Shown here: piece after piece, positions 1 through 16,578 of the stretch
Numbering within the stretch: the first letter of the stretch is position 1
How the letters are laid out: every line of letters begins with the position of its first letter
Origin: Luteimonas mephitis DSM 12574
GTDB taxonomy: Bacteria > Pseudomonadota > Gammaproteobacteria > Xanthomonadales > Xanthomonadaceae
Direction: 5' to 3'
Assembly: GCF_000422305.1 (NCBI RefSeq)
Contig: NZ_AULN01000012.1
Span: 62,001 to 126,000 of the forward strand
DNA length: 64,000 bases
Program-made: the position numbers and the translations under genes
The notes under the pieces: model-generated
What the model was told of the DNA's origin: nothing
Databases searched by the model: none
The model's input: the letters and a program-made list of their open reading frames with translations, nothing else

Positions 1-184
1 TTTTCGCGATGGTGAGCGTGCAGTCGTGCCGCATGTTGCCGACCGCGAGGCCCGTCCCCGCACACTTCACCACGGCGGCGTGCGCAGGCGCTTCGCAGCC
101 CGACGTTGCCAGCGCGAGCAACGCGGCGCCGATCCCGGCCAGCCACCGGCGTGTCGCTGCGGAACGTGCGATGGAGCGCGTCAT
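1..184 (-). CDS. Secreted or lipoprotein-like small protein, 3' end outside the window
   Basis: The gene starts at ATG 184 and runs off the left edge after about 61 codons, so its C-terminus is not visible. The N-terminus has arginines (RSAATRR) and a hydrophobic stretch ending LATSGC, a weak lipobox, so it is either a lipoprotein or an ordinary secreted protein. The start codon overlaps the stop of the upstream gene (ATGA at 181-184), which indicates translational coupling and places it last in the visible minus-strand operon. Its mature start (VKCAG...HDCTLTI) resembles the Cys pattern of the upstream 118-residue protein (VDCGA...VDCRIQ), so the two may be diverged tandem copies. I do not recognise a family. 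Confidence 0.6.
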   Translation of the reverse strand, partial: MTRSIARSAATRRWLAGIGAALLALATSGCEAPAHAAVVKCAGTGLAVGNMRHDCTLTIAK

Positions 185-537
185 TTCGAAGTGATCCCCA
201 GGCGCTCGACCTTGCCGGAGGTGGGCACGTCGCAAGCCGCCTGGTTGGAGAAGCCTGCGACCGGCATGTTCCGGATTCCTTCCGTCTCCCCGACGGCCAT
301 GTCGTGGCACGCCGAGCCGGTCATCCGGCCGCCGTTCTGGCAGGTGATCACCAGGTTCCAGCACGCTTCAAACGCTCCGGTGCCGCCGGTGCGCTGGATC
401 CTGCAGTCGACGCCATTGGGGCCGGGCGCGCCGCAGTCGACGCGGGCGGCATCGGGATTTGTGTTGATGGTGCACGCGGCGACCACCAGCGCGATGGAGA
501 CCGGGAGCAGCGCATGGAGGACGGCTTGCGGTTTCAT
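181..537 (-). CDS. Small Cys-rich lipoprotein, unknown function
   Basis: This is 118 residues from ATG 537. A hydrophobic N-terminal segment ends in a good lipobox (VVAAC, Cys at about residue 22), predicting an outer-membrane or periplasmic lipoprotein. The mature part has several cysteines (DCG, DCR, CW, TCQ, ACH, ACD), suggesting disulfide bonds outside the cytoplasm. It sits 49 nt after the preceding lipoprotein gene and overlaps the next by four bases, so it belongs to the operon that starts at 2582. An upstream in-frame extension to 678 is possible on paper but would bury the signal peptide, so I reject it. The family is not recognised. Confidence 0.65.
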   Translation of the reverse strand: MKPQAVLHALLPVSIALVVAACTINTNPDAARVDCGAPGPNGVDCRIQRTGGTGAFEACWNLVITCQNGGRMTGSACHDMAVGETEGIRNMPVAGFSNQAACDVPTSGKVERLGITSK

Positions 538-586
538 GGATGGATGCTCCGGGTCGCGTTCTTGCGGGTGCAGTGAAGAAGTGGAT

Positions 587-1366
587 TCAGTAGCCAAGGA
601 TGATGGCGGCGGAGTTCCGGGTCCTGGTGCCGGATTCGGGTTTGAAATCCAGCTGGAGTCCGGGCTGGAAATCGCCACGCGTGTCGCGGTCCTGGATCCT
701 CAGCGCGCGCGAGCCCTCATCGTTCTTCAGCACCGCGGTGACCTTGTAGCGTCCGATCGGGACGTCCTCGATCAGGCCGGCCTGCTTCCAGTAGTGGTCT
801 TCCAGCCGCAGGTGGAGGATTTTCCCTTGCGAGCCGTCGATCAGCGGGCCGATGGGCGTGAGGGTCAGCTCGATTTTTTCCAGGTCTTCGTGGAAGCCGA
901 GGTCGGTGTCCAGCTGGATGAGTCCGCCGTAGTAGCCGTACTCGTTCAAGGGCGTGCGCCCTTCCAGCTTCCACGTGAAGTTGCGCACGGCGCCCTCGTC
1001 GTCGAAGGAATCGCTCTTGTCCGGATGCAGTTCCAGGTTGTAGGTCTGCCCGTTGTAGTTCTTCTTGAAGGAGGCCTGTGCCATCCACGCGCCGGGTTGC
1101 GCCTTGATCCGGTAGGTGCCGTCTTCGCCGGTGGAGCCGTGGATGTAGGAGTTGTAGAACACGCTGTTGTCGAGCAGGATCTTCGCCCCGGCGATCGGCC
1201 GGCCCTGCGTGTCGACGACCTTGCCGGTGGCATAGCCTGCCTGTGCCTGTGCCTGTGCCTGTGCTTGCGCATCGCCGTGGCCCGTGCCCGCCTGTTGTTC
1301 GCAGCCGGACAGGGCCAGGGACGCCATGCACGCGAGGGCGAACATTGCCTTTTTCGGTGTGCCCAT
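587..1366 (-). CDS. Lipoprotein with carboxypeptidase-regulatory-like domain and AQ repeat
   Basis: This is 259 residues from ATG 1366; ATGs at 1390 and 1402 are in-frame alternatives, none with a clear Shine-Dalgarno site. The signal ends in a canonical lipobox (LALSGC, Cys about residue 22). Directly after it lies an Ala-Gln repeat encoded by CTGTGC hexamers. It is followed by a beta-sandwich of the carboxypeptidase regulatory-like type (GKVVDTQGRPIAGAKILL ... GEDGTYRI, about residues 45-90). The rest has no family I know. The predicted product is a surface or periplasmic lipoprotein. It lies about 40 nt downstream of the 2582 gene and is inferred to be in the same transcript. Confidence 0.7.
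   Translation of the reverse strand: MGTPKKAMFALACMASLALSGCEQQAGTGHGDAQAQAQAQAQAGYATGKVVDTQGRPIAGAKILLDNSVFYNSYIHGSTGEDGTYRIKAQPGAWMAQASFKKNYNGQTYNLELHPDKSDSFDDEGAVRNFTWKLEGRTPLNEYGYYGGLIQLDTDLGFHEDLEKIELTLTPIGPLIDGSQGKILHLRLEDHYWKQAGLIEDVPIGRYKVTAVLKNDEGSRALRIQDRDTRGDFQPGLQLDFKPESGTRTRNSAAIILGY
1235..1270 (-). repeat. CTGTGC hexanucleotide repeat coding for Ala-Gln
   Basis: Four perfect CTGTGC units (1241-1264 on the plus strand) flanked by degenerate ones encode an alternating Ala-Gln linker just behind the lipidated cysteine. Six-base units keep the frame, so slippage would change linker length, not switch the gene off. Confidence 0.8.
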
Positions 1367-1406
1367 GGACGGATGTTTCGAAGCCTGCATGGAGAAGGAC
1401 ATGCGG

Positions 1407-2582
1407 TCAGCGCCCGAACAGGCCGCGCAGCACGCCCTTCGCCGCATCCTTGGCGGTCGGCTTGGCGGCGTCCTGCGAAGCGCCGGGCGCGATGGCGCCA
1501 GCCGACGGCATCAGCATCGCGGTGGACTTGTTGCGCACGTGCACGCGCCAGCCCGGCTGGCTGATGGTGCGCTGGTTGCCGTAGGCGACCATCTGCACCA
1601 TCGGCGCGCCGCCGCTGCCGGCGAACACCTCGCGCGGCACCTGGCAGCTGCGCGCATCGGCGCCCAGCAGCGTGCGCTTGCCGGTCCACTGGGTGACGAG
1701 CTGTTCGGGGAGGAAGTCGATCAGCTCCGGCCCCGCGTAGCCGTCCTCGGAGCTGCTCCACATCACGATGGTGTTGCCGTCCATCGCGGTGGCATGGATG
1801 AAGTAGGCGCGGGCGCCGTCGACGCCGTTCCAGCGCAGCGCCATGCCCTGTTCGGCGCTGCCCGCGTTTTCGAGTTTCAGCTCGGGCAGGAAGTCGTGGT
1901 CGCGGCCGAGCTCGAACTGCATCGCGTCGGGCAGCCCGTCGCCGGAGACGCGGTGCGTGCCGACCAGCGATGCCTTCGCCGACACCGACTTGCGGCTCGA
2001 CTGGTTGGGCCACAGCGCGTGGGTGGGACCGGGATCGACGCCGTGCTGCGGCACGTTGCGCGGCGCCATGGTGCGGCCGCCCTGGATCGGCTTGCCGTTG
2101 CGGACCGTCAGCGTGTACTTGGCCGGCTGACCGGCGCGCACCTGTTCGCCGCAGCCCCAGTAGTAGTGGATCGTGTAGGGGCCGCCGTCGGCGAGGCCCT
2201 GGCCGCCGGCTGCCGAGCTCTCCGGCACCGCATGTGCCTGCTTGTGCTGCGGCGCCAGCAGGTCGATGCGATCACCCAGTCGCAGGCCATCGGGAATGGA
2301 TTGACTGGCCGGCGCGCCGGGACGGCGGCGGTTGTCCAGCGCCACGTCCAGGTATTTGCCGGGCATGCCCGGATGCCGGGCCTGGCCGTAGCTGGCGTTG
2401 CCGCCGGACATCGCCCCGGCCATGCGGCCGAGCGCGCCAATTCCCCCCATGCCGGGCATGGTGTGGGTGGCGACGTCGATGTAGAGGTCGGCCTGCACCG
2501 CCTGGGCGCTTGCGGGCACGGGCTGGGTTGCGGCGAGGGCGAGCGCCAGCGTCGAGGCGACGAGGGAAGAAGGACGATGCAT
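1407..2582 (-). CDS. Secreted protein of unknown function, first gene of the ECF-type promoter operon
   Basis: This is 391 residues from ATG 2582. It has a Sec signal with cleavage predicted near ASA-QA at about residue 27. The mature N-terminus holds a Gly/Met-rich patch (MPGMGGIGALGRMAGAMSGG). The C-terminal half contains beta-rich text (FIHATAMDGNTIVMWSSSE) and ends with an Ala/Lys-rich tail and a GLFGR terminus. I know no named domain. The start is preceded by a leader of about 60 nt containing a hairpin and a CTGTCAGT-N16-CGTG promoter, both shared with the adhesin gene at 4879. It is probably the first gene of an operon continuing to 1. Role in the envelope is inferred from the signal peptide and its neighbours only. 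Confidence 0.7.
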   Translation of the reverse strand: MHRPSSLVASTLALALAATQPVPASAQAVQADLYIDVATHTMPGMGGIGALGRMAGAMSGGNASYGQARHPGMPGKYLDVALDNRRRPGAPASQSIPDGLRLGDRIDLLAPQHKQAHAVPESSAAGGQGLADGGPYTIHYYWGCGEQVRAGQPAKYTLTVRNGKPIQGGRTMAPRNVPQHGVDPGPTHALWPNQSSRKSVSAKASLVGTHRVSGDGLPDAMQFELGRDHDFLPELKLENAGSAEQGMALRWNGVDGARAYFIHATAMDGNTIVMWSSSEDGYAGPELIDFLPEQLVTQWTGKRTLLGADARSCQVPREVFAGSGGAPMVQMVAYGNQRTISQPGWRVHVRNKSTAMLMPSAGAIAPGASQDAAKPTAKDAAKGVLRGLFGR

Positions 2583-2625
2583 GTTGAACCACCCGGATAG
2601 GGGGGTCGAACGGCGACCCGGCCGG

Positions 2626-2642
2626 GCCCGGTGGGTCCGGGC
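2626..2642 (-). promoter_or_regulatory. 5'-leader hairpin of the 2582 operon
   Basis: On the minus strand the sequence is GCCCGG-ACCCA-CCGGGC, a perfect 6-bp stem. It lies 8 nt after the CGTG box, that is, at the predicted 5' end of the transcript. The adhesin leader has the matching hairpin at 5011-5029 with compensatory changes in the stem. Confidence 0.6.
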
Positions 2643-2650
2643 ACCCCATC

Positions 2651-2678
2651 CACGAGATTTGGCGCCCGCAACTGACAG
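2651..2678 (-). promoter_or_regulatory. ECF-type promoter, CTGTCAGT-N16-CGTG (secreted operon)
   Basis: Minus strand: CTGTCAGT at 2678-2671, 16 nt, then CGTG at 2654-2651. The same two boxes with exactly the same spacing occur at 5037-5064 and 7779-7806, each upstream of a minus-strand gene of this cluster. The layout (upstream box, 16 nt, CGT-type downstream box) is that of ECF promoters. Assignment to the sigma factor at 10542-11111 is inferred. Confidence 0.65.
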
Positions 2679-2825
2679 GCGCCGGAGGACATTCGCACCC
2701 AGGCGCACTCGCTCCCGCCCCTGCGCAACGATTTCGCCGGCTCCGAAGCTCGCGGCCCAATGACACTCGCAGGCGGCATCCCGCCAACTCGCAAGTGCGG
2801 CGCTTCCCACCACGCGCGGAAGCGG

Positions 2826-2856
2826 AAACAAAAACGCCCCGGCCGAAGCCGGGGCG
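2826..2856 (-). terminator. Rho-independent terminator of the adhesin gene
   Basis: On the minus strand a GC-rich stem (CGCCCCGGC/GCCGGGGCG with a TTCG loop, 2835-2856) is followed by GTTTTTGTTT. It lies about 60 nt after the stop of the adhesin gene and separates it from the secreted operon, which has its own promoter. Confidence 0.85.
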
Positions 2857-2917
2857 CAGGGTCATCACGGGTTGTCGCCCGCTCGCCGTCCATGGCGGGC
2901 TGGCGCGGACCAACGCG

Positions 2918-4879
2918 TTACAGATCGATGCCGAAACCCACGCCGGCCGAACGATCGCTGCCGCTGAACGCGCCGCCCAGCGAGAACGACGCACGCCCGA
3001 TGCGCTTGCCGTAACCGATCGACAGGCCCTTCTCGCCGCCCTGGAAGCCGGCGCCGACCGCGATGCGGCCGCGCTCGCTCTGGGTGCCGGAGGCGTTGAT
3101 CGCCATGTTGAGCATCGCCGCGCTCATCGCGCCCATGCGGTCGATGCGACGGTCCTGGCGATCCATGCGGCGATCGACGTCATCGAAGCGGTCTTCGAGC
3201 GCGTCCAGGCGATCGTTCAGTCCGCCGGCATCGAAGCCGATCAGCTGCTGGATCGCGATGTCGGTGTACTCGTTGGCCTGGTTGAGCGTGGTGGTGTCGC
3301 CGGTGGCCATGTCGTCGCGGATCGCGTCCTCGCGGCCATCGGTATAGGCGTTGGCTTCGTTGAGGGTGTCGGCGTCGCCGGCGTTCGAGATCTCGGTGGA
3401 AATCCCGCGCACCTGGTCTTCGTTGAGGCCGTCCAGCCCGCTGCCGGCCGGGCCCTGCGGACCCTGCGGACCCGCGGGTCCCTGCGGACCCTGCGGACCC
3501 GCCGGACCCTGCGTGCCGCCGCCCGGCGGCAGCGCTTCGAGATCGGCAACGCGGCCATCGAGGCTCGACAGCGCGCCATCCACCGCGGCGAACGCATCGC
3601 CCACGTTGCCGTGGCTGCTGCCCTGGATCACGTACGTCGGCGCCGTCCACGCGCCATTGGTGAACGCCGCGCCGCCGCCGAAGTACGACGCCACGGTGCT
3701 GCCCATGTCGTACAGCTGCGACACGTTGACCGCGTCGGTGGCGGCGATGCCGGCGGCCACGTGGACCAGGCGGCGCTCGCTGTCGGTGTCGCCGAAGGAA
3801 ACCGTGTCGGCTTCGCTGGCCACCGACATGGCACCGATCGCCACCGAGTTGGTGGCATCCACCGTCACCAGCGCCTTGCCGCCGATCGCGACGCCACCGC
3901 TGGCGGTGAAGCCGGTCCCACCCTCGGCCAGCACCGAGGCGTCCCGGCCGATGGCGATGGCTTCATAACCGGTGGCCTTGGCATTCATGCCGATCGCAAG
4001 ACTCTGATGGCCGGCGGCCTTCGAGGCATAGCCGAAGGCGCTGCTGCGCAAGCCACTGGCGGTGTTCTCGTAGCCGAACGCAGTGCTCCGCTCGCCTTCG
4101 GCGGTGTTGTTGAAGCCGAAGGCGATGGCACCGGCGGCGGTCGCCTTGTTGCTCCCACCGAACGCGTTGGCCCCGTTGGCGGTGGCGCGGTTGCTCTGTC
4201 CGACGGCGTTCGCATTGTTGGCGGTGGCCTGGTTTCCGTAGCCGAATGCGCTGCTCTGCGTGCCCGTGACGGTGTTCCCGGACCCGAACGCGGATGAAGA
4301 TCCGCCGGAAGCCTCGTTGGAACCACCGAATGCATTGCTGTCACCGCCGCTTGCGGTGTTGCTGTGTCCGAATGCGGCGGCGTCCTGGCCGCTGGCGGTG
4401 TTCTGCCAGCCGAATGCGCTGGCGCTCTGGCCGGGACTCTTGTTGCTGATGCCGAAGGCGCTGCTGCTATTTCCTTGCGCGATGTTGAAGGTGCCGGTTG
4501 CGACGCTGTTCAGGGCCTCGGCCGCGTTCGAATGGCCGATTGCGGACGACTGCACGCCGCTGGCGATGTTGCCCTGGCCGACCGCGGTGCTGGTTTTGCC
4601 ACGTGCGATGTTGTGGTCGCCAACGGCGGTGCTGAATTCTCCGCTGGCGTTGTTGAATTCGCCATACGCGCTGGCATTGGCGGCGCAGGTGCTGTTGTCT
4701 TCACCGTGCTCGCTGCCTTGGTTGGTATCGACCGCGGGGGCTGGATCCCACTGCTGCGTGGTGGTGTTGAACACCATGCAGACGGGATCGGCGGCCTTGG
4801 CCGGCAGGGCGAGCACCAGGCCGAGCGCGAGTGCGAGCGGGGCGAGTCGGTTGGCGGCGGTGGTGATGGGGTGGTGCAT
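2918..4879 (-). CDS. Trimeric autotransporter adhesin (YadA-like) with collagen-like segment
   Basis: This is 653 residues from ATG 4879, chosen because GGAGAG lies 5-10 nt before it; an ATG at 4891 is also in frame. After a Sec signal ending near PAKA-AD there is a long YadA-type head of about 14-residue repeats (S-AFG-x-NTASG variants, about residues 50-340). A neck/stalk motif follows (AATDAVNVSQL), then a short collagen-like GPQGPQGPA tract (about residues 460-485), a coiled-coil stalk with DRRMDRQDRRID, and a C-terminal membrane anchor (ISMGYGKRIG-like, ending GFGIDL). Such proteins form trimers, insert the C-terminal barrel in the outer membrane and display the head for attachment. It is monocistronic, with its own ECF-type promoter and terminator. 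Confidence 0.92.
   Translation of the reverse strand: MHHPITTAANRLAPLALALGLVLALPAKAADPVCMVFNTTTQQWDPAPAVDTNQGSEHGEDNSTCAANASAYGEFNNASGEFSTAVGDHNIARGKTSTAVGQGNIASGVQSSAIGHSNAAEALNSVATGTFNIAQGNSSSAFGISNKSPGQSASAFGWQNTASGQDAAAFGHSNTASGGDSNAFGGSNEASGGSSSAFGSGNTVTGTQSSAFGYGNQATANNANAVGQSNRATANGANAFGGSNKATAAGAIAFGFNNTAEGERSTAFGYENTASGLRSSAFGYASKAAGHQSLAIGMNAKATGYEAIAIGRDASVLAEGGTGFTASGGVAIGGKALVTVDATNSVAIGAMSVASEADTVSFGDTDSERRLVHVAAGIAATDAVNVSQLYDMGSTVASYFGGGAAFTNGAWTAPTYVIQGSSHGNVGDAFAAVDGALSSLDGRVADLEALPPGGGTQGPAGPQGPQGPAGPQGPQGPAGSGLDGLNEDQVRGISTEISNAGDADTLNEANAYTDGREDAIRDDMATGDTTTLNQANEYTDIAIQQLIGFDAGGLNDRLDALEDRFDDVDRRMDRQDRRIDRMGAMSAAMLNMAINASGTQSERGRIAVGAGFQGGEKGLSIGYGKRIGRASFSLGGAFSGSDRSAGVGFGIDL
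3450..3515 (-). repeat. Collagen-like (Gly-Pro-Gln/Ala) coding repeat
   Basis: Near-identical CCTGCGGAC units (plus strand) encode GPAGPQGPQ triplets inside the adhesin stalk. The nucleotide repeats are nearly perfect, suggesting recent expansion. Confidence 0.8.
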
Positions 4880-5010
4880 GTGTCTCTCCATGTTGGATTG
4901 GCGTTCGACGCCTTGGGATCCGGCGACCGCAGCCCTGCCACCGCGGGCGACGGGCGCCCGACGGGGGAACGGGTAGCGGGAAGCGGCGGGCCGTCACGGT
5001 GGCCCGACCG

Positions 5011-5029
5011 GGTCCGGTGAATCCGGACC
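5011..5029 (-). promoter_or_regulatory. 5'-leader hairpin of the adhesin gene
   Basis: Minus strand: GGTCCGG-ATTCA-CCGGACC, a perfect 7-bp stem starting 7 nt after the CGTG box. It corresponds in place and in flanking sequence (CGGYCGGG follows in both) to the hairpin at 2626-2642, but the stem bases differ in a compensated way. Possible roles are mRNA stabilisation or a protein-binding site. Confidence 0.6.
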
Positions 5030-5036
5030 CTCCATA

Positions 5037-5064
5037 CACGACAGACGGAAGCGGGAACTGACAG
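5037..5064 (-). promoter_or_regulatory. ECF-type promoter, CTGTCAGT-N16-CGTG (adhesin)
   Basis: Minus strand: CTGTCAGT at 5064-5057 and CGTG at 5040-5037, spacer exactly 16 nt. The start codon of the adhesin at 4879 would leave a leader of about 150 nt. Confidence 0.65.
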
Positions 5065-5150
5065 CGCCGCGCGATGGGCGCTGCTGCCGCGAATGGCATG
5101 CGCGTGTGAATCGGCATGGCGCGGCCGGGGCGCCCCGGCCCTGGCAGCTG

Positions 5151-7769
5151 TCAGGGCAGTGCCAGGCAGTTCGCCTTGGTCGGGTTGGTGAAGCAGGCGG
5201 CAGCCGGGGGCAGATGCGCGAAATCCGCGGCCTCCGAGGCCAGCTCGGCTTCCGCCGTGGTATCGCCGGCACGCCGCGCCAGCAGCATCGACAGCATCCA
5301 CGGGCGCATCCAGTTGTTGTCCGGGCCGCGGTTGCCCGTCGCGCGCCGCAATGTCCCTGCAAGTGCCGCGGCCTCGTCCGTCATGCCGCGCGCGATCAGC
5401 ACTTCCGCCTGCGCCAGCGAGAAGTAGATCGAGTCGCCGGCCTTCGCTGAAGCCGGGCACCGGTCGAGCGCATGCTGTGCCCGTAACGCGTCGCCCTGGC
5501 GGAGGTGGATCGACGCGCGCAGGCCGCAGATGCTGCGGGTGACCGCGGTTCTCAGCTGGCTGTTCAGGGCCCGCAGCGACTGGCTGCGGTCGAGGTCCTC
5601 CAGCGCCCCGGCGTACTGGCCGAGCGACGCGCGCAGGATTCCGCGGTAACGCGCGCACTCCGCGGCATGGAGGTTCTTGCGTCCGATCGTGCGATCGATG
5701 TCGGCGCCCGCATCGTAGTGCCGCAAGGCTTGTTCGCGCTGGCCGCCGCGCAGGTGCAGGTGCGCGGCCAGCTGGCACTGGATCACGGCCGCGGCCTGGT
5801 GGGGCTGGTCGTAGACCGACTCGGCGATCCGTGCCGCCTGTTCCAGCATCTCGCCGGCGCGCTCGGCCTTGCCCGCCAGCAGGAACGTACCCGACGCATC
5901 GGCCAGCGCATAGGCGTATGCGCCGCTCATTTCACCGTCCAGCAAGCGGGTCAGGCGCAGCGACTCGTCCAGGACCGGCATCGTGCCGGCGCGATCGCGC
6001 CCCGCGTAGATCAGGGCCGATGCCAGGCCATCGAGGATGTCGCGGTGCAGGTGGGTGTCGCCGAACCCGGCGGCGATGGCATCGTCCAGCAACTCGCGCG
6101 ACATCGTTTCCGCGGCGGCCGGGTCGAGGTACGTGGTGGCCATCGCCAGGGCAAGCCTGGCATCGAGTCGGTTCCGTTGCGGAACACCGTCGGTTTCGCT
6201 GAGCGCCACAGCCTTGCGCGCGTGTTCCACCCCCAACTCCTGCCTGCCGGTGTTCCAGAACACCTCCGCCAGTTCCTGGTGCGCGCGCATCCGCTCGGCA
6301 ATGCTTCCGGGGCCGCGCCTTTCGAGCAGCTCCAGGGCAGTACGCAGGTCGTCTTCGGCCTGCCCGAACCGGCTCAGCTTCATGCGCGCGCCGCCGGTGA
6401 GGGTCAGGATATCGGCCGCCGCCAGCGCGTCGTTGGCAAGGGCCGGGGAGCGTGCGCGCCTGGAGCCTTCGTCGAGCAGGTCCAGCGCGCTGGGGACGTC
6501 GTTCGCCGAAGGCTGCGTGGACGCGAACACCTGCTGCAGGAAGTCGCGCACCAGGATCGCGCGCTGCGCCTGCACGCGCGCATTGTCCGCCTCGCGCCGC
6601 GCCGCGTCCGCCTGCCACAGCGTCGCGCCGATGCCTCCTGCAAGCGTTGCGACCAGCAGCACCGCCGCCGCCACGCCCAGCTTGTTGCGCCCCACGAACT
6701 TGCGCAGGCGATAGCCCAGCTTCGGCTTCTGCGCCAGAACCGGCTGGCCGCCGAGCCAGCGGCGCAGGTCGTCGGCCAGCGCTTCGGCCGATGAGTAGCG
6801 CCGTGCCGGTTCGGGGGCCAGCGCCTTCTGCAGCACGCGGTCGAGGTCGCTCTTCAGCGCGGCGTGGTGATGGTGATGGAGGTCGCCGATGTCGCGCACC
6901 AGCAGCGACGGACGGGTAGGCGTGGTGGCCTCGCCCGGCTCCGACTCGCGCGGGGCCTTGCCGCTGAGCAGCTTGTGCAGCAGCGCGCCGATGCCGTACA
7001 CGTCCATCGCCGTGCTCGATGCCGCTCCGAGCCGCTGTTCCGGCGCGGCATAGCCCGGCGTCAGCGCGCGCCAAAGCGTGTGGGTGCGCTCTTCGGTGGA
7101 GTCGGTGAACTGGCCGATGCCGAAGTCGAGCAGCCGCACGTGGCCGCCGGCTTCGACCAGCACGTTGGAGGGCTTCAGGTCGCGGTGGATCACCAGGCTG
7201 CGGTGGGCGTGGGCCACCGCGTCGCAGACCTGCAGGCAGAGGCCGACGACGGCGCGCGTGTCCAGTGCCTCGCGCTCGCACCAGTGGTCGATGCGCTCGC
7301 CTTCCACCAGCGGCATCGCCAGCCAGCAGGTGCCGTCGTCGGCGACGCCCGAGTCGACCAGCGCGGTGATGTTGGGGTGGTTGAGGCGCGCCAGGATCGC
7401 CGCTTCGCGCTTGAAGCGGTCGCGGCCGACCGCGCCCAGCGCGCCGAGGGTGAGGATCTTGATCGCCGCCTGCTGCCGCGCCATGCCCTGCTCGCGCCAG
7501 CCGCGATAGACCACTGCCATGCCGCCGCGGCCCAGTTCGGCGTCCAGGGTCCAGCCGCCGAACTGGTGGCCGATCAGGTTGCCGCCGAACGGATCAAGCG
7601 ATGCGCGCGGCTGCCGATGCGCGGCGATCAGCTGGTCGAGGTGCCGGCGCACCGGTTCGGCCAGTTCCTGCGCGGCGAGCCAGGCGTCGCGTTCGTTTTC
7701 GGGCAGGTCCAGCCAGTGGTCGAAGGCGGCGTCGGCCGCCTGCCAGTGGGAGAGGGTCTCAGGGTCCAT
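5151..7769 (-). CDS. Membrane Ser/Thr protein kinase with C-terminal helical-repeat sensor (kinase 1)
   Basis: This is 872 residues from ATG 7769; the paralogue begins with the same MD-ETL-HW motif, which fixes the start. The kinase domain has a Gly-loop GRGGMAVVYRG (80-90), VAIK-like AAIK (Lys104), HRDLKPSN (195-202), DFG (215-217) and a PGYAAPE activation-segment end (238-244), so it should be active. One transmembrane helix follows at about 365-384. The remaining roughly 490 residues are alpha-helical TPR-like repeats, which should face the periplasm and may sense a ligand or partner. It ends CFTNPTKANCLALP, like the paralogue. It lies 167 nt after the sigma-kinase 2 pair and has its own ECF-type promoter directly before the start. 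Likely task: phosphorylating the ECF43-like sigma factor. Confidence 0.9.
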   Translation of the reverse strand: MDPETLSHWQAADAAFDHWLDLPENERDAWLAAQELAEPVRRHLDQLIAAHRQPRASLDPFGGNLIGHQFGGWTLDAELGRGGMAVVYRGWREQGMARQQAAIKILTLGALGAVGRDRFKREAAILARLNHPNITALVDSGVADDGTCWLAMPLVEGERIDHWCEREALDTRAVVGLCLQVCDAVAHAHRSLVIHRDLKPSNVLVEAGGHVRLLDFGIGQFTDSTEERTHTLWRALTPGYAAPEQRLGAASSTAMDVYGIGALLHKLLSGKAPRESEPGEATTPTRPSLLVRDIGDLHHHHHAALKSDLDRVLQKALAPEPARRYSSAEALADDLRRWLGGQPVLAQKPKLGYRLRKFVGRNKLGVAAAVLLVATLAGGIGATLWQADAARREADNARVQAQRAILVRDFLQQVFASTQPSANDVPSALDLLDEGSRRARSPALANDALAAADILTLTGGARMKLSRFGQAEDDLRTALELLERRGPGSIAERMRAHQELAEVFWNTGRQELGVEHARKAVALSETDGVPQRNRLDARLALAMATTYLDPAAAETMSRELLDDAIAAGFGDTHLHRDILDGLASALIYAGRDRAGTMPVLDESLRLTRLLDGEMSGAYAYALADASGTFLLAGKAERAGEMLEQAARIAESVYDQPHQAAAVIQCQLAAHLHLRGGQREQALRHYDAGADIDRTIGRKNLHAAECARYRGILRASLGQYAGALEDLDRSQSLRALNSQLRTAVTRSICGLRASIHLRQGDALRAQHALDRCPASAKAGDSIYFSLAQAEVLIARGMTDEAAALAGTLRRATGNRGPDNNWMRPWMLSMLLARRAGDTTAEAELASEAADFAHLPPAAACFTNPTKANCLALP
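7286..7571 (-). repeat. Gene-conversion-like tract shared with 10069-10354
   Basis: Over 286 bp the kinase 1 and kinase 2 genes differ at only two positions (7511 and 7550) with no indels, whereas both flanks diverge strongly, also at third codon positions. The tract codes the N-lobe of the kinase domain (Gly-loop through to the hinge region). Confidence 0.75.
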
Positions 7770-7778
7770 TTCGCTTCC

Positions 7779-7806
7779 CACGATTTTCGGCGCCGGGGAC
7801 TGACAG
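7779..7806 (-). promoter_or_regulatory. ECF-type promoter, CTGTCAGT-N16-CGTG (kinase 1)
   Basis: Minus strand: CTGTCAGT at 7806-7799 and CGTG at 7782-7779. The CGTG box ends only 9 nt before the ATG at 7769, so a transcript starting the usual 5-8 nt downstream would be leaderless or almost so. If the local sigma factor reads it, this is a feedback loop raising kinase 1. Confidence 0.6.
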
Positions 7807-7936
7807 CACGCGCTGTCGAAAGAAGGCGGTTGCCGGTCGCGCCGGAACATGCGAGGTCGGCAGCGGATCGTTGCTGCAGCAGCTGCGTGGCGTGCGTCCT
7901 GCATGGATCGCAGGCCCTGCACACAGCGACGCCGGA

Positions 7937-10552
7937 CTAGGGGACGGCCAGGCAGTTCGTTTCATCGGGCTTGGCCAGGCAATGCGAAAGAAATGAGTTG
8001 TCGCCAAGGTCGCCAAGGTCGCCGAGCTCGGCGGCGAGCCGCGTCTGTGCCGACGTATCACCCGCGTTGCGGGCCAGCAGCAGCGACAGCATCCACGGCC
8101 GCATCCACTGGGTACGTGTGATATCGGCTTCGCGCGGCCAGCGTTGGCGAATGGCAGCGGCCAGCATGGTGGCTTCGCGGATTTCGCCGCGCGCGAAATG
8201 CAGCTCCGCCTGGGCCTGCATGCGCATGATTGCCTTCGGTGCGCCTTCGGCCTGTGGGCACTGGGCGAGCGTGCGTTCCGCTTCGTCCACCGCCCCCAGC
8301 CGGATCTGGGTCGTGGCCAGCAGGCCGCAGGTGTCGTAGCCCTGCTTGGTGCCGCGGTAGTCGAGCTGTTCGAGGATCTGCCAGGCCCGTTCCAGGTTCG
8401 CGAGCGCGATGTCGAGTTTGCCAACGCTCAGATGGGCATGGCCGCTCATCCGGAAGCACGACTCGATTTCCTGCTGGTTGTTCGGGAGCTGCGCGTAGAT
8501 CCCGTCGGCCACCGAATAGTATTCCAGCGACTCGGCGTTGCGCCCGGTGTAGTAGTGGTAGCCGCCGGCGGCGCAGTAGGCGAGGGCCTTCGTCGAGTGC
8601 GGCTTCCGGTAGATGCGGTCGGCGGTCTTGATCGCCTCGAAGGCGACCTGCCGCGCGAGTTCGTCTTCGCCGACGGTCAGGAACACGACGACGTTGTTCG
8701 CGAGCGTATGCACGTACCGGCCGCTGTCGGGCCCATCCACCAGGCGCGACAGACGCAGGATTTCCTCCGCGTGCATGGCGTGCTGCTGCATGTTGTCGCG
8801 ATCCATCGCGAACGTCTGGTCGCGCAGCCCGGTGAGCGCATCGAGGTGCAGTCCGGTGTCCTGCAGCCCGTACCGGTGGATCGCTCCGATGACGGCCTCG
8901 AACTCGGCGCGGGAGGCGTGCGGATCGCTGAAGGAAAGCGCACGGCCGAGCCTGATCCTGGCGTTGAGGTAGGTCGCGACGTCGCCGTTTCCTGCCAGGG
9001 CCCGCGCCCCGAGTTCCACCGCCCGGCGGCCATGCGCGATCGCCGCGTCTGTCCTGCCGGTTTCGCGCATCACGCCACTCAGGCCGGCTTCGATGCGCGA
9101 GCGTTCCAGGTGGGCCGCCGAGCCGCTCGCGGACAGCAGCTCGCCTGCCTGCGTCAGGTCGGCCAGCGCCTTGTCCAGGTCGTCCAGCGCGATCCTCGCG
9201 TTGCCGGTGAGCATCAGGATGTCCGCGGCGGCGAGCGGGTCAGTTTCCAGGATGTTCGAGCGCGCGCGGCGCGCGCCTTCGTCGAGCAGTTCGATCGCGG
9301 TCGGCACCGCGCCCGCCGCAGGCTCGGTGGAAGTGAACACGTGCGCGAGGAAGTCGCGCACCACGACCGCGCGCTGGGCCTCGCGGCGGGCTTCGCCGGC
9401 CTGCCACAGCGTCGCGCCGATGCCGGCGCACAGGCTCGCGGCCAGCAGCACGCCCGCGGTCACGCCGACCCTGTTGCGGGCGACGAACTTGCGCACCCGG
9501 TAGCCGAGCTTCGGGCGCTGCGCCAGCACCGGCTGGCCGCCCAGCCAGCGGCGCAGGTCGTCGGCGAGGGCCTCGGCCGTGGGGTAGCGATGCTCCGGCT
9601 CCTCGGCAAGGGCCTTGAGCAGCACGCGGTCCAGGTCGTTCTTCAGCGGAGCATAGTGACGGTGGTAGGCGTCGCCGGCGCTTCGCACCAGCGCGGAGGG
9701 TCGGGTGGTGCCGGTGTTCTCGTGGGCGGCATGCGGCGTGCGCCCGGTCAGCAACCGGTGCAGCAGGGCGCCCAGGCCGTAGACGTCGATCGCGGTGCTC
9801 GGCGGTGCGCCGTGCAGTTGTTCGGGCGCGGCGTAGCCTACGGTCAAGGCGCGCCACATCGTCTGCGTTTGTTCGTCCTCGTTATCGGCGAACTGGCCGA
9901 TGCCGAAGTCGAGCAGGCGCGCGTGGCCGTCGGCGTCCACCAGCACGTTGGAGGGCTTGATGTCGCGGTGGATCACCAGGTTGCGATGCGCGCAGGCGAC
10001 CGCGGCGCAGACCTGCAGGTACAGCCGGACGATCGCGCGCGCGTCGGGCGAGTTCGATTCGCACCAGCGGTCGATGCGCTCGCCTTCCACCAGCGGCATC
10101 GCCAGCCAGCAGGTGCCGTCGTCGGCGACGCCCGAGTCGACCAGCGCGGTGATGTTGGGGTGGTTGAGGCGCGCCAGGATCGCCGCTTCGCGCTTGAAGC
10201 GGTCGCGGCCGACCGCGCCCAGCGCGCCGAGGGTGAGGATCTTGATCGCCGCCTGCTGCCGCGCCATGCCCTGCTCGCGCCAGCCGCGATAGATCACTGC
10301 CATGCCGCCGCGGCCCAGTTCGGCGTCCAGGGCCCAGCCGCCGAACTGGTGGCCGGCGAGGTTGCCGCCGAACGGATCGAGTGCCGCGCGCGGGCGGCGG
10401 TGCGCGGCCACGAGTTGGCCGAGCCGCTGCCGCACCGGTTCGATCAGCGCCTGCGCGGCGAGCCAGGCCTCGCGCCCGGCTTCGGGGAGGTCCAGCCATT
10501 GGTCGAACAGGGCGTCGGCGGCGCGCCAGTGCGCCAGGGTTTCAGCGTCCAT
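7937..10552 (-). CDS. Membrane Ser/Thr protein kinase with C-terminal helical-repeat sensor (kinase 2)
   Basis: This is 871 residues from ATG 10552 (a GTG at 10558 is also in frame). The architecture equals kinase 1: Gly-loop GRGGMAVIYRG, AAIK, HRDIKPSN, DFGIGQF, GYAAPE, one transmembrane helix (TAGVLLAASLCAGIGATLW), then TPR-like helices ending CLAKPDETNCLAVP. The start overlaps the 3' end of the sigma factor gene by 11 bases, so translation is coupled; this is the dedicated partner kinase by position. Its kinase domain shares a nearly identical 286-bp DNA tract with kinase 1, while the sensor halves have diverged, consistent with two inputs feeding one sigma factor. Confidence 0.9.
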   Translation of the reverse strand: MDAETLAHWRAADALFDQWLDLPEAGREAWLAAQALIEPVRQRLGQLVAAHRRPRAALDPFGGNLAGHQFGGWALDAELGRGGMAVIYRGWREQGMARQQAAIKILTLGALGAVGRDRFKREAAILARLNHPNITALVDSGVADDGTCWLAMPLVEGERIDRWCESNSPDARAIVRLYLQVCAAVACAHRNLVIHRDIKPSNVLVDADGHARLLDFGIGQFADNEDEQTQTMWRALTVGYAAPEQLHGAPPSTAIDVYGLGALLHRLLTGRTPHAAHENTGTTRPSALVRSAGDAYHRHYAPLKNDLDRVLLKALAEEPEHRYPTAEALADDLRRWLGGQPVLAQRPKLGYRVRKFVARNRVGVTAGVLLAASLCAGIGATLWQAGEARREAQRAVVVRDFLAHVFTSTEPAAGAVPTAIELLDEGARRARSNILETDPLAAADILMLTGNARIALDDLDKALADLTQAGELLSASGSAAHLERSRIEAGLSGVMRETGRTDAAIAHGRRAVELGARALAGNGDVATYLNARIRLGRALSFSDPHASRAEFEAVIGAIHRYGLQDTGLHLDALTGLRDQTFAMDRDNMQQHAMHAEEILRLSRLVDGPDSGRYVHTLANNVVVFLTVGEDELARQVAFEAIKTADRIYRKPHSTKALAYCAAGGYHYYTGRNAESLEYYSVADGIYAQLPNNQQEIESCFRMSGHAHLSVGKLDIALANLERAWQILEQLDYRGTKQGYDTCGLLATTQIRLGAVDEAERTLAQCPQAEGAPKAIMRMQAQAELHFARGEIREATMLAAAIRQRWPREADITRTQWMRPWMLSLLLARNAGDTSAQTRLAAELGDLGDLGDNSFLSHCLAKPDETNCLAVP

Positions 10553-11111
10553 CACCACCGTCGTCGTCGAGCATCGCCTGCAGGAACGCGCGCGCGCGCT
10601 CCCATTCGCGATACACGGTGCGCTCTGAGATCTCGAGCAACTGCGCGATCTCGGCGAACTCCATGCCGGCGAAGTAGCGCAGTTCGACGATCTGGCGGCG
10701 CTGCGGGCTGATCGCTTCCAGCGCGGTCAGGCCCTGGTCGAGCATCAGCACGCTGGTCATCTGCGCGTCCGCGTCCGGGATCTGGTCGTCTAGGCTGACC
10801 ATCACCTGGTCGCCGCCGCGCTTGCCGGCGGCGCGCTGGCGCGCGTGTTCGACCAGGATCCAGCGCATCGCCTTGGCCGAGGCGGCGAAGAAATGGTTGC
10901 GATCGGCCAGCGACAGCGGCGTGCCCTGGCTGATCCGCAGGAACAGCTCGTGCACCAGCACGGTAGGGGTGAACGTCGATTCGCGGCCGTACATGCGCGA
11001 GTTGGCGAGGCGACGCAGCTCGGGATACAGCGCCTCGAACACGGCCGCCATCTGTGCCGGCTCGCCGTCGCGGGCAAGTGCGAGCAATCTGGTGATGTCG
11101 GCTTCCGCCAT
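10542..11111 (-). CDS. ECF43-like RNA polymerase sigma factor (Sigma70_ECF / TIGR02999 type)
   Basis: This is 189 residues from ATG 11111, with a good Shine-Dalgarno AGGGGAAG. Region 2 spans about residues 25-90 (YPELRRLANSRM ... HFFAASAKAMRWILVEHARQ) and region 4 about residues 130-180 (RRQIVELRYFAGMEFAEIAQLL, then ERTVYREW as recognition helix). Where ordinary ECF factors carry the acidic D-x-E-D of region 2.2 before LVQETFLR, this protein has TPTVLVHELFLR (Thr48, Thr50). In the ECF43 factor EcfP of Vibrio parahaemolyticus such a threonine is phosphorylated by PknT to supply the missing charge; in Xanthomonas citri EcfK works with PknS. No anti-sigma gene is present; two kinases follow instead. 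It probably directs the CTGTCAGT-N16-CGTG promoters of this cluster. Confidence 0.9.
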   Translation of the reverse strand: MAEADITRLLALARDGEPAQMAAVFEALYPELRRLANSRMYGRESTFTPTVLVHELFLRISQGTPLSLADRNHFFAASAKAMRWILVEHARQRAAGKRGGDQVMVSLDDQIPDADAQMTSVLMLDQGLTALEAISPQRRQIVELRYFAGMEFAEIAQLLEISERTVYREWERARAFLQAMLDDDGGDGR

Positions 11112-11339
11112 TTCCCGCTTCCCCTGGTCCGATTCCTCCGGACACGCAGCCGTTGACGCTACCAGCCCCCCCGGACGGAGACAATCCGGGCGCGTCCGGA
11201 GCGCGGCGAATGCGGCCGCCACGCGCCGTGGCCGCAGCGGCCGCCGCGTTGCGTTGCGCCCTGAATGAAGCCTGGTTGCCGGGGGTGCGGGAAAGGCCAT
11301 GCCGGGGCAGGCCGGCCCGTGGAGTTCCGCCGGTGCCGC

Positions 11340-11870
11340 GAATGCCGGTTTGGCGGCGATGAGCCGGCGCCCGTTCCTGGCTGAGCTGCTGGTAGTGCAG
11401 AGCGTCCGTCCGCCGAGCGGCAACCTGGATGCCTGAAAGCGCGTTCATCCAGGGCAGCTCTTTTCAGCGCGCGCGGTTCGGAAGCCGACGATCGCAGCGC
11501 CATTGATCACTACTGCAAGGCGGTCGAACTTGACCGCGCCGTGCCGCTGCCTATGCCGGACTGGCGATGGCCCGGGGAGGCCTGGCGCCCCGGCTGCTGG
11601 GCGATACGCAGCGGCAGGGAGAATACGTGCGGGCGCGCGCCGCGATCGCATCCGCGCTGGCATCGATCCGACCTCGCAGCAGCGCACAGCGCGCGCGCCT
11701 ATCTGCTGACCTACGCGGATGTCGACTCGAAGGGTGCCTAGGCAGCCGCACGGCGCGCGCTGGAACCGGCGGCGAACAATGGCGTGGCGCAGGGACGCCG
11801 GCACACGAGCCGCTGCGCGAGTTCCCGCAGCACGATGTCCGACGACAGCAGCGGCTGACGGCGGCGGGAT
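11340..11870 (+). pseudogene. Decayed fragment of a TPR-repeat regulator
   Basis: No intact frame exists, but reading across frames gives a continuous TPR-like text: SVRPPSGNLDA, then AFIQGSSFQRAR, EADDRSAIDHYCKAVELDRA, AAAYAGLAMARG, LLGDTQRQGEYVRARAAI, IDPTSQQ, AHSARAYLLTYADVDSKGA and ARRALEPAANNGVAQG. These need at least four frameshifts and two stops (TGA near 11435, TAG near 11740). The style matches the C-terminal TPR half of winged-helix/adenylate-cyclase-type regulators. The N-terminal part is missing. It lies between the sigma factor and the murG-like gene; the rest of 11112-11933 shows nothing else coding. Confidence 0.6.
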
Positions 11871-11933
11871 GTTTTCTGGCTGCTGCGTGGACGCCTCGCT
11901 ATAGTCGCGGCTCGACTTCCACGCGATGGATCC

Positions 11934-13064
11934 ATGGCGAACCCCCAGGCCGTCGGGCCAACCCCGTCCACAACGATTGGCCTTGCCGCCGGCGGCACCG
12001 GCGGTCATTTGTTCCCGGCCGAAGCGCTGGCGCGCGAGCTGCAGCGGCGCGGCCACGGCGTGGTGATCTACACCGAGCGGCGCGGCGCGCAGTACGCGAA
12101 GGCGCTGGAAGGCATCCCGCACCTGGTGCTGCCGGCGCGCAGCCTGGCAGGCGGCATCGGGGGCAAGCTGGCGGCGGCGTTCGTGATCCTGCGCGCGACG
12201 CTGCAGGCGCGGCGCGACATGAAGCGTCGCGGCGTCGCGCTGCTGGTCGGGTTCGGCGGCTACCCGAGCTTCGCGCCCGCGGTCGCGGCGAAAAGCCTGA
12301 AGCTGCCGCTGCTGCTGCACGAACAGGCCACGCGCCTGAGCATGGCCAACCGCCAGCTGCTGGGGTACGCCGACGCGCTGGCGACCTCTTTCCCCGCCGT
12401 TGCCGGCGCCGACGGCATCGACCCGGCGCGCATCACCGAGACCGGCAACCCGGTGCGCGCCGGGATCCTCGCCGCGCGCGGCGACTACCCGGCGCTGTCG
12501 GCGCAGACGCCGATCGAGCTGCTGGTGGTCGGCGGCAGCCAGAGCGCGCGGGTGTTCGGCGAAGTCGTGCCGCCGGCGCTGCTGGCGCTGCCCGCGGATA
12601 TCCGCAGCCGCCTGCGCGTGGCGCTGCAGTACAAAGGCGACGATGCCGATGCGATCGCCGCGCGCCTGCGCGAAGCCGGCATCGCTGCCGACGTGCGCCC
12701 GTTCTTCGACGACATGGGCGCGCGCCTGCGCGCCGCGCACCTGGTGATCACCCGCGCCGGCGCCACCACCGCGGCCGACCTGCTGACCGTCGGCCGCCCG
12801 GCGATCTTCGTGCCGATCCCGCAAGGCGGTGCGCGCGAGGAGCAGCGTCGCAATGCCGACACGCTGGCCGAGGCCGGCGTGGGCTGGTGCGTGCCGGAGC
12901 CGGAGCTGACCGCGGAAAAGCTTTCGAAACTGCTGGGCGAACTGTTCGCCTCGGCGATCAAGCTGCCGCAGGCGGCCGCGGTGGCCGCATCGATGGGCCG
13001 GCCGCGGGCGGCGATCAACCTTGCCGACCTGGTGGAGCGGGTGCTGGCGCAGCGCGCGCGATGA
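11934..13064 (+). CDS. MurG-like UDP-GlcNAc:lipid I transferase, alphaproteobacterial-looking paralogue
   Basis: This is 376 residues from ATG 11934; TATAGT at 11900-11905 may be the -10 box. MurG adds GlcNAc to undecaprenyl-PP-MurNAc-pentapeptide (lipid I) at the inner face of the membrane. Visible motifs are AAGGTGGHLFPAEALA (residues 18-33), the FGGYPSFAP and LLHEQ segments of the N-domain, and VVGGSQSARVFGEVVP opening the C-domain, with TRAGATTAADL near the donor site. GGHLFPAEALA and the RRGAQYA context resemble alphaproteobacterial MurG more than the GGHIFPGLAVA form usual in gammaproteobacteria. No other mur, fts or ddl genes lie nearby, so the normal murG is presumably in the dcw cluster elsewhere and this is a second, probably acquired copy. 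Lipid I as substrate is not assured. Confidence 0.8.
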   Translation: MANPQAVGPTPSTTIGLAAGGTGGHLFPAEALARELQRRGHGVVIYTERRGAQYAKALEGIPHLVLPARSLAGGIGGKLAAAFVILRATLQARRDMKRRGVALLVGFGGYPSFAPAVAAKSLKLPLLLHEQATRLSMANRQLLGYADALATSFPAVAGADGIDPARITETGNPVRAGILAARGDYPALSAQTPIELLVVGGSQSARVFGEVVPPALLALPADIRSRLRVALQYKGDDADAIAARLREAGIAADVRPFFDDMGARLRAAHLVITRAGATTAADLLTVGRPAIFVPIPQGGAREEQRRNADTLAEAGVGWCVPEPELTAEKLSKLLGELFASAIKLPQAAAVAASMGRPRAAINLADLVERVLAQRAR

Positions 13065-14997: not shown

Positions 14998-16578
14998 ATG
15001 GGCCGCACGCCGCTGTTCCACCTGCTGCAACGCGCTGCGCGCATCGCGCGCGCAGCCACGCATGATGCGGCGCCGCTCGACGAGTTCTACGCGCGCGGCT
15101 GCGAACAGCGCGCCGATCATTCGCGCCGGCGCTTCCTGCAGGCGGCCGGCGCGGGGCTGCTGCTGGCCGGCTGCGGCAGCCTGCCGAAGCCGCTCATGCC
15201 CGCGGGCGACGAGGTGGCCATCGTCGGCGCCGGCATTGCCGGGCTCACCGCCGCGTGGCGCCTGCGCCAGCAGGGCGTGCGGGTGCGCGTGTTCGAGGCG
15301 CAGAACCGCATCGGCGGGCGCATGCTCAGCCTGCGCAACCACTTCCCGGACGACCAGGTGATCGAGCTGGGCGGCGAGCTGATCGACAGCGACCATGTCC
15401 GCATCCGCACGCTCGCAGCCGAACTCGGGCTGGTGCTGGACGACCTGCTTGAAGGCGATGCCGACCATGACACCTGGTTTTTCGACGGTCGCGCGATATC
15501 CGAACGCGAGATCGTCGAGGCCTTCGTCCCGGTCGTCGCGGCGATCGAGCGCGACCTCGCCACCCTTGGCGACGGCGACATCCTGCACGACGACCACCAG
15601 GGGGCCGACGCGCTCGACGCGCTGTCGATCGCGCAGTGGCTCGACCGCAACGGCGTGTCGGGCTGGCTGCGCAAGCTGATCGACGTCGCCTACACCACCG
15701 AGATGGGGCTGGAGACCGACCGGCAGTCGGCGCTGAACTTCCTCACCTTCATCGGCACCGACGACAAGGACCGCTTTGCCGTGTTCGGCAGCAGCGACGA
15801 GCGCTTCCACGTGCGCGGCGGCAACGACCTGGTCGTGCACGGACTGGGCGCGAAACTGGCCGATGCGGTCGAAACCGGCAGCGTGCTGGAAGCGGTGCGT
15901 GGCGACGCATCGGGTTACACCTTGACGTTCCGCCGCGACGGCGCGACCCGTGACGTGGCCGCGCGGCAGGTCATCCTCGCGCTGCCTTTCACCCTGCTGC
16001 GCAAGGTGCGGGTCGACGTGGCGCTGCCACCGCTGAAACGCCAGGCCATCGACACGCTCGCCTACGGCACCAATGCGAAGCTGATGATCGGCTACGACCG
16101 CCGGGTCTGGCGCGCGCAGGGTGCCAACGGCGCGTCCTTCAGCGACCTGGTGTTCCAGAGCACCTGGGAGACCACCCGCAAGCAGCCGGGTGCCGGCGGC
16201 GTGCTGACCAACTTCACGGGCGGCCGCCACGGCGTCGAGATCGGGCAGGGCACGCCGAAACAGCAGGCCGATGCCGCCACCGCCGCGATCGACCGGATGT
16301 TTCCTGGCGCAGCGGCGGCACGCGCTGGCGCGCGCGAGGTGCGCATGCACTGGCCATCGAACCCTTGGGTGCTGGGCAGCTATGCGTGCCTGGGTCCGGG
16401 CGACTGGACCGGCCTGCGCGGCGCGATGGGCCAATCGGTCGGCGGGCTGCACTTTGCCGGCGAGCACTGCGCGCTCGACACCCAGGGATTCATGGAAGGC
16501 GGCTGCGAATCGGGCGAGACCGCGGCGACGGCGGTGCTGCGCGCACTGCGTTCCGTGGACGCACGCCGTGCCGCCTGA
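14998..16578 (+). CDS. Flavin monoamine oxidase family protein with Tat-type signal
   Basis: This is 526 residues from ATG 14998, with GCGAGG before it. An N-terminal stretch of about 40 residues precedes a twin-arginine motif (SRRRFLQAAGAG) and a lipobox-like LLAGC, so export in folded form with FAD and perhaps lipid anchoring is likely. The FAD fold follows (VAIVGAGIAGLTAAWRL, about residue 75) with FEAQNRIGGRM. The C-terminal FAD motif is GGLHFAGEHCA...QGFMEGG (about residues 480-500). Members oxidise amines or amino acids to imines with H2O2 release. The last gene of the murG-like cluster, closed by the terminator at 16681-16715. The Tat signal starting after about 40 residues is unusual. 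Confidence 0.85.
   Translation: MGRTPLFHLLQRAARIARAATHDAAPLDEFYARGCEQRADHSRRRFLQAAGAGLLLAGCGSLPKPLMPAGDEVAIVGAGIAGLTAAWRLRQQGVRVRVFEAQNRIGGRMLSLRNHFPDDQVIELGGELIDSDHVRIRTLAAELGLVLDDLLEGDADHDTWFFDGRAISEREIVEAFVPVVAAIERDLATLGDGDILHDDHQGADALDALSIAQWLDRNGVSGWLRKLIDVAYTTEMGLETDRQSALNFLTFIGTDDKDRFAVFGSSDERFHVRGGNDLVVHGLGAKLADAVETGSVLEAVRGDASGYTLTFRRDGATRDVAARQVILALPFTLLRKVRVDVALPPLKRQAIDTLAYGTNAKLMIGYDRRVWRAQGANGASFSDLVFQSTWETTRKQPGAGGVLTNFTGGRHGVEIGQGTPKQQADAATAAIDRMFPGAAAARAGAREVRMHWPSNPWVLGSYACLGPGDWTGLRGAMGQSVGGLHFAGEHCALDTQGFMEGGCESGETAATAVLRALRSVDARRAA

Follow-up and report, generated by a model that had tools for sequence, protein, structure and literature searches.

A probable two-box promoter element confined to one sigma factor and kinase locus in Luteimonas mephitis and its relatives

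What reads a two-box element that stands before three genes of Luteimonas mephitis DSM 12574, and what does it control? The element, CTGTCAGT-N16-CGTG, lies in a stretch of 64,000 nucleotides (nt) (NCBI RefSeq assembly GCF_000422305.1, contig NZ_AULN01000012.1, positions 62,001 to 126,000 of the forward strand), called the window here. The window also encodes an extracytoplasmic function (ECF) sigma factor and two receptor kinases. To our knowledge, kinase-linked ECF sigma factors are recognized mainly by their gene neighborhood, and few have known target promoters. The explanation that we consider likely as a whole is that the elements are -35/-10 promoters of the sigma factor encoded at 10542-11111, activated by phosphorylation, and that they drive a local surface regulon together with one of the kinases.

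An exact pattern search of both strands of the window located three copies, all on the minus strand:

2651..2678, minus strand: promoter copy before the secreted protein operon; exact pattern; predicted transcription start (+1) near 2642
5037..5064, minus strand: promoter copy before the adhesin gene; exact pattern; predicted +1 near 5028
7779..7806, minus strand: promoter copy before the kinase 1 gene; exact pattern; predicted +1 near 7770, taken from the other copies; no twin-hairpin leader

All three are intergenic, and the gap from CGTG to the ATG is 68 bases for the secreted protein, 145 for the adhesin and 9 for kinase 1. The boxes are identical and the 16-nt spacers differ. Two boxes at a fixed spacing before several genes are what is expected of an ECF-type promoter.

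The mean chance expectation for the pattern in the window was 0.01, and three or more copies were reached by none of 100 dinucleotide shuffles. Across the whole genome (3,416,011 bases), where the base composition of the window alone predicts about 0.34 matches, the same three sites were the only ones and the reversed-pattern control gave none. Relaxing the pattern to TGTCAGT-N14..18-CGTG yielded eight genome sites, three local and five elsewhere. With an extended pattern running on to CGTGGATGG and up to three mismatches allowed, there were seven sites compared to two for the reversed control; the local copies had 0, 1 and 3 mismatches and the other four sites had 2-3. Chance or coding-DNA matches as the source of the three copies were ruled out by the shuffles, the genome search and the reversed controls. 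The earlier note had placed the three copies here and had found no other by eye; both statements hold, the second for the entire 3.42 Mb genome.

Downstream of two of the copies are the following genes:

2918..4891, minus strand: YadA-type trimeric autotransporter adhesin (P0004, 657 amino acids); PF05658 and PF05662 (head and stalk)
1407..2582, minus strand: secreted protein P0005 (391 amino acids); 56-71% identity to 8 relatives; frequent neighbor of the sigma factor
587..1402, minus strand: lipoprotein with a CarboxypepD_reg domain (P0006); PF13620; lipobox by eye
181..537, minus strand: small lipoprotein-like open reading frame (P0007); lipobox by eye; possibly the third gene of the operon

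P0005 had no Pfam or NCBIfam match at E 0.001. The third copy precedes kinase 1, which belongs to a cluster with the sigma factor:

10542..11111, minus strand: ECF sigma factor P0001 (189 amino acids), putative reader of the element; passes the curated cut-offs of PF07638 and TIGR02999
7937..10552, minus strand: kinase 2 (P0002, 871 amino acids), Hanks-type receptor kinase; PF00069 and tetratricopeptide repeat (TPR) models; best PDB match 9EED_A, residues 8-337
5151..7769, minus strand: kinase 1 (P0003, 872 amino acids), apparent diverged tandem duplicate of kinase 2; PF00069; 55% amino acid identity

P0001 scored 161.3 bits with PF07638 (cut-off 21.1) and 174 bits with TIGR02999 (cut-off 126.15), and no solved relative was found in the PDB at E 0.001. 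We take these two models to cover the ECF43 group, for which the searched libraries hold no specific model. At region 2.2, where ordinary ECF sigma factors are acidic, P0001 reads TPTV, with the DAED-type motif replaced and the conserved Thr present. Replacement of the acidic region 2.2 motif together with a conserved Thr defines ECF43 in the available text of three reports (PMC13147305, PMC8999054, PMC8103513). In EcfK of Xanthomonas citri, T51 and T106 are phosphorylated by the kinase PknS, according to the part of the source at hand (PMC13147305). We set T50 and S106 of P0001 opposite these residues by the published motif and by position, not by the sequence of EcfK. T50 is invariant in all 23 aligned sigma relatives. 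Position 106 is S in six of the 14 close sigma factors, D or E in four and N, A, Q or H in four; among nine sister sigma factors it is T in eight and E in one. P0001 would be an ECF43-like sigma factor, activated via phosphorylation by a Hanks-type kinase.

The kinase 2 gene overlaps the sigma gene by 11 bases and is followed by kinase 1. Kinase 2 consists of a kinase domain, a membrane segment (by eye) and a TPR-like C-terminal part. P0002 and P0003 both carry a GxGGM loop, HRDxKPSN and DFG, an N-terminal extension and weak TPR models, their topology being assigned by eye. The PDB entry matched by kinase 2, 9EED, is X. citri PknS, the kinase that phosphorylates EcfK, as given in the accessible part of PMC13147305. 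The first 1.4 kb of the two kinase genes are about 80% identical at the DNA level and hold an exact run of 225 nt. The pair resembles a tandem duplication in which one part was homogenized recently, a sign of gene conversion.

A search of genome contigs for the sigma factor yielded ten relatives, seven of them named Luteimonas and the others Rhodanobacter, Lysobacter and Pseudoxanthomonas. The element was present in 10/10, with CGTT for CGTG in locus L009. Adding the window and the loci of G133, G312 and G087 to these ten gave 14 sigma-bearing loci (sigma identity 71-100%), all of which have CTGTCAG-N17-CGTK and 13 of which have the exact 12 bases. In these loci the element lies downstream of the sigma-kinase pair and before genes for exported proteins; the kinase 1 copy of the window is the exception. 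A weaker additional site, TGTCAGC-N16-CGTT, lies between sigma factor and kinase in locus L010 and is outside these counts.

The same association was seen in an evenly drawn sample of 395 genomes of the family. The two counts overlap: by their identical promoter stretches, seven of the ten named loci were recognized among the sampled genomes. Exact matches occurred in 37 genomes. A sigma ortholog (at least 72% identity, the next best match being at most 65%) was found in 11 of the 395, and the motif was present in 11/11 ortholog genomes versus 26/384 others (Fisher p ~1e-12, ignoring relatedness). Of those 26 genomes, 24 hold a single match, and because the reversed control matched about 43 of the 395 genomes (hand count), the 26 are no more than chance would give. 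The 11 ortholog genomes contain 21 exact copies, every one within about 8.2 kb of the sigma gene, downstream and on its strand.

Twenty-seven distinct, position-aligned copies give a longer consensus of about CTGTCAGTTnCCGnCnCCnGATCTCGTGGATGG; this conservation past the boxes, like the leader that two of the three window copies have in common downstream, had gone unnoticed in the earlier note. The boxes selected these copies, and only the other conserved positions are independent evidence; some copies also come from near-identical species (L006, L008). Within the spacer, a G is fixed in 26/27 copies, a T in 24/27 and a C in 22/27. In the GATGG that follows CGTG, the T is kept in 26/27 and the G in 25/27. 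Five copies (L029, L041, L044 twice, L048) had been chosen by eye from their flanking sequence, and gene context confirmed them afterwards; leaving these out, the spacer values are 21/22, 19/22 and 19/22, and those in GATGG 21/22 and 20/22. A purine occupies the ninth position past CGTG in 25/27 copies (20/22 without the by-eye picks), making this base a plausible +1.

With two more copies (L092 at 8044 and L094 at 5338) there are 29 distinct ones, and 28 precede genes for exported proteins: 12 P0005-like proteins, nine YadA relatives and seven lipoproteins (a P0006 relative plus six more, their lipoboxes assigned by eye). The remaining one precedes kinase 1. The term "local regulon" of the earlier note stands, with no exact copy away from the sigma locus in the 11 ortholog genomes. 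Its description of the targets as unrelated genes needs some qualification, since all except kinase 1 encode exported proteins. The note had also named the product of 10542-11111 as the simplest candidate for the common sigma factor, and confinement, co-occurrence with the ortholog and a counterpart at sister sigma factors (below) all point that way. The three elements are best explained as copies of one promoter that the adjacent sigma factor is predicted to recognize, with start sites also predicted from sequence.

Two of the three predicted transcripts would begin with a similar RNA structure:

4984..5031, minus strand: twin-hairpin leader of the adhesin transcript; match to leader model R1, 56.9 bits, E 1.2e-6 (genome search; member of the model's own alignment)
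2599..2645, minus strand: twin-hairpin leader of the secreted protein operon; match to R1, 63.4 bits, E 8.2e-8 (genome search; member of the model's own alignment)

The alignment behind the model holds 15 sequences, the two window copies and 13 look-alike copies; the other 12 of the 27 promoter copies, kinase 1 included, were left outside it, with no twin hairpin evident by eye. In the alignment, 96.1% of cells pair, and both partners have changed in 4 of the 12 pairs. Neither the 500 shuffles nor any slid structure reached the covariation score, while the counts of pairs with change and of pair types were reached by 23 and 22 of the 500. Unconstrained RNAalifold predicted both hairpins from the same alignment. 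Searched against the genome, with 150 of 8,399 first-look candidates scored, the model found only the two window places at E ≤1. Across 31 loci it recovered its own 15 alignment members plus two matches near E 1. Compared to shuffled sequences, the minimum free energy of the adhesin leader folded alone was low (z -2.97) and that of the secreted protein leader weakly so (z -1.55). Some single-sequence folds speak against the twin hairpin: the lowest-energy fold of 74-nt stretches differs from it partly or wholly (window 2678, L005 14364, L044 2970), and in a longer stretch the second hairpin of the secreted protein leader is not part of the lowest-energy fold.

The 5' stem-loop of ompA stabilizes its mRNA. 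The same effect of a 5' stem-loop is known from recA and vacA, as far as the available text of PMC7509114 goes. The leader here would also place a stable hairpin in the 5' leader of the message, and it has no Rfam match at gathering scores (window 1-12000). In our preferred reading the hairpins, whose position in the transcript depends on the predicted +1, probably protect the 5' end of the message from decay. Another possible explanation is that the leader is a regulated RNA element, such as a thermometer, a protein- or ligand-binding leader or an attenuator, instead of a passive stabilizer. Two covarying hairpins are kept across genes and species, and at the end of one copy (L005, about 16284-16330) a T run comes after a hairpin, which looks like an intrinsic terminator or attenuator. 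However, no sequestration of the ribosome site is evident by eye, the loops vary, the other 14 aligned copies have no T run by eye, and to the missing Rfam match is added the absence of an evident twin hairpin from 12 of the 27 promoter copies. We consider regulation by the leader possible but rather unlikely.

A comparison with more distant sigma factors bears on the identity of the reader. At 15 sister loci (sigma identity 57-65%) the exact motif is absent. A related element, TGKC followed at the same spacing by CGGAT or CGTAT, lies on the same strand 8-227 nt past the kinase stop in 12 of the 15, a pattern that was chosen after looking at the DNA past the kinase. Matches to it also occur elsewhere in six loci. 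A YadA relative is encoded downstream in 7/15 sister loci. Both types coexist, with different -10 boxes, in two genomes, G072 (L095 and the L004 sequence) and G087 (L092 and L121). The promoter form seems to drift together with the sigma factor, which fits the sigma factor as its reader, although the argument is partly post hoc.

Several observations weigh against the adjacent sigma factor as the reader or against the proposed mechanism. Sigma factor and motif are physically linked, and their co-occurrence could be co-inheritance; the relatives are not independent, which makes the Fisher p optimistic. In G047, an assembly that is 81% complete, two motif copies precede P0005 and YadA relatives and no sigma factor was detected. 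Among the sister loci, L097, L098 and L104 are without the sister form, and L098 (sigma identity 63-65%) has relatives of P0005 and P0006 but neither motif form by pattern. The sister pattern was fixed beforehand for a held-out set of 16 more distant loci (46-61% identity), of which 13 had a usable kinase end and L131, L133 and L134 were dropped for want of one; it was found on the same strand within 300 nt of the kinase stop in 1/13. A weight matrix, trained on ten earlier-locus sequences only yet built after this result had been seen, ranked the best site within the top few 300-nt windows for 5/13. Four of the 23 aligned sigma factors have N, A, Q or H opposite T106. Lastly, there is hardly space for a leader at the kinase 1 copy.

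The motif could instead be the site of a different regulator, or be read by another TIGR02999 sigma factor, with the adjacent sigma factor only co-traveling. The genome does encode three further TIGR02999 sigma factors above the cut-off (38-45% identity to P0001), and linkage at one locus alone cannot separate co-inheritance from recognition. But no copy of the motif lies near any of these three. Two boxes, a fixed 16-nt spacer and a CGT -10 are typical of ECF promoters, and the diverged -10 at the same place in 12/15 sister loci is expected if the sigma factor is the reader. We regard a different reader as improbable.

An N-terminal extension or leader peptide, in place of RNA structure, might also explain the conservation of the leader. 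In several copies an in-frame ATG one base past CGTG opens a Pro/Gly-rich frame joined to the secreted protein. This reading was rejected, and we give it very little chance: length differences of 1-2 bases in the conserved stretch (L006, L007, L008, L012, L013, L044) shift the frame, the predicted +1 is downstream of the early ATG, and a signal peptide, identified by eye, begins with the later ATG. That the three copies are functionless remnants of a recent duplication of an intergenic block, for which the leader common to two copies and the duplicated kinases with their exact run could be cited, is hardly credible, as the window spacers differ between identical boxes, the 27 copies from many species keep the boxes (the selecting pattern) and a few spacer positions while the flanks drift, and the leader hairpins change by compensation.

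Under promoter recognition by the adjacent sigma factor, the membrane kinase or kinases would sense a signal through their periplasmic TPR-like part, and this would lead to phosphorylation of the sigma factor. The most likely target would be T50 in region 2.2, which lacks the acidic core-binding motif, with S106 in the linker as a possible second one. The phosphorylated sigma factor would join RNA polymerase, recognize CTGTCAGT-N16-CGTGGATGG and transcribe the adhesin gene, the secreted protein/lipoprotein operon and kinase 1, which would close a positive loop. The adhesin and secreted protein transcripts would begin at, or 1-2 bases from, the stable twin hairpin.

Kinase 1 would be made from a different kind of message. 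Its promoter copy has nine bases from CGTG to the ATG (7769), and the predicted +1 is one base before that ATG, a proximity that the earlier note had passed over. The message is probably leaderless and would be part of a feedback loop. Either this is so, or kinase 1 is translated mainly from sigma-kinase 2 read-through, using the GGAAG before its ATG. In relatives with one kinase detected between sigma factor and promoter, the promoter is located after the kinase and before a surface gene. The simplest history would therefore be that the duplicated kinase landed behind an existing promoter. Two kinase genes in direct succession, as in the window, were also seen downstream of a sister sigma factor (L119, in G054).

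Some further sites were noted at related loci. Sister-pattern sites lie between sigma factor and kinase in L105, L107 and L108. In L102, L105 and L109, both strands carry sister-type promoter-like sites upstream of the sigma gene. Their distance to the kinase stop is about 4 kb, or about 5.5 kb in L105, and they suggest divergent, possibly self-regulated transcription. Further weak promoter variants were seen by eye in L098, L126 and L128 and were not counted. The L. mephitis genome itself has a second sigma-kinase locus with a YadA adhesin nearby (L135, G000:C3:248000-260400), with 44% identity to the window's sigma factor, 33% to its kinase and 38% to its adhesin. There an opposite-strand open reading frame resembling thymidine kinase (by eye) lies in between, and no copy of the promoter was found.

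ECF41-type promoters have a TGTCA-type -35, a CGT-type -10 and 16-nt spacing, like the window element. ECF41 sigma factors carry a C-terminal regulatory domain (a fused regulatory domain in the available part of PMC3426412), and the 189-residue window sigma factor is without such extra length. Among the closest known systems is EcfK/PknS of X. citri, an ECF43 pair. According to the accessible text of PMC13147305, which gives no promoter sequence for EcfK, the sigma factor likewise adjoins a transmembrane Ser/Thr kinase that has an N-terminal extension and carries TPRs on the periplasmic side, and the acidic 2.2 motif is replaced. In our alignment, Thr/Ser of the window sigma factor stand at the positions set opposite the EcfK phospho-sites. 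By the same text, EcfK differs in keeping one negative charge (QATE, compared to TPTV) and in controlling a type VI secretion system, whereas the window sigma factor is linked to a YadA adhesin, a secreted protein and lipoproteins. Unlike EcfK/PknS, the window locus has two kinases, one of them behind a candidate promoter. EcfP/PknT of Vibrio parahaemolyticus is also a phospho-activated ECF43 sigma factor with a neighboring kinase, but its regulon is for polymyxin resistance, and no adhesin cassette is described in the parts of the reports available to us (PMC8999054, PMC8103513).

The literature matches listed in our search, which left most subscription papers outside its reach, contained no kinase-linked ECF sigma factor with a YadA regulon in titles or abstracts and no mention of TGTCAGT together with "ECF sigma". 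Nor did the available text of the listed matches contain a twin-hairpin leader or a self-induced second kinase in such systems. The locus is best read as a new local regulon of a known signaling kind, with the twin-hairpin leader and the self-induced second kinase as added features.

In this case comparative sequence makes the promoter directly readable. It is restricted to a single locus, and the regulon predicted from it comprises an adhesin, a secreted protein and lipoproteins. A small set of reporters would allow direct tests of the signal, of the phospho-sites and of the pairing between sigma factor and promoter. The pair may be an orthogonal, phosphorylation-gated promoter system, and the sister dialects are a natural series for the study of sigma-promoter co-evolution. 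More tentatively, each sigma-kinase cassette might own a private promoter dialect that has co-diverged with its sigma factor and insulates several surface regulons in one cell, to which the window would add a new class of twin-hairpin leader and a leaderless, self-induced second receptor kinase.

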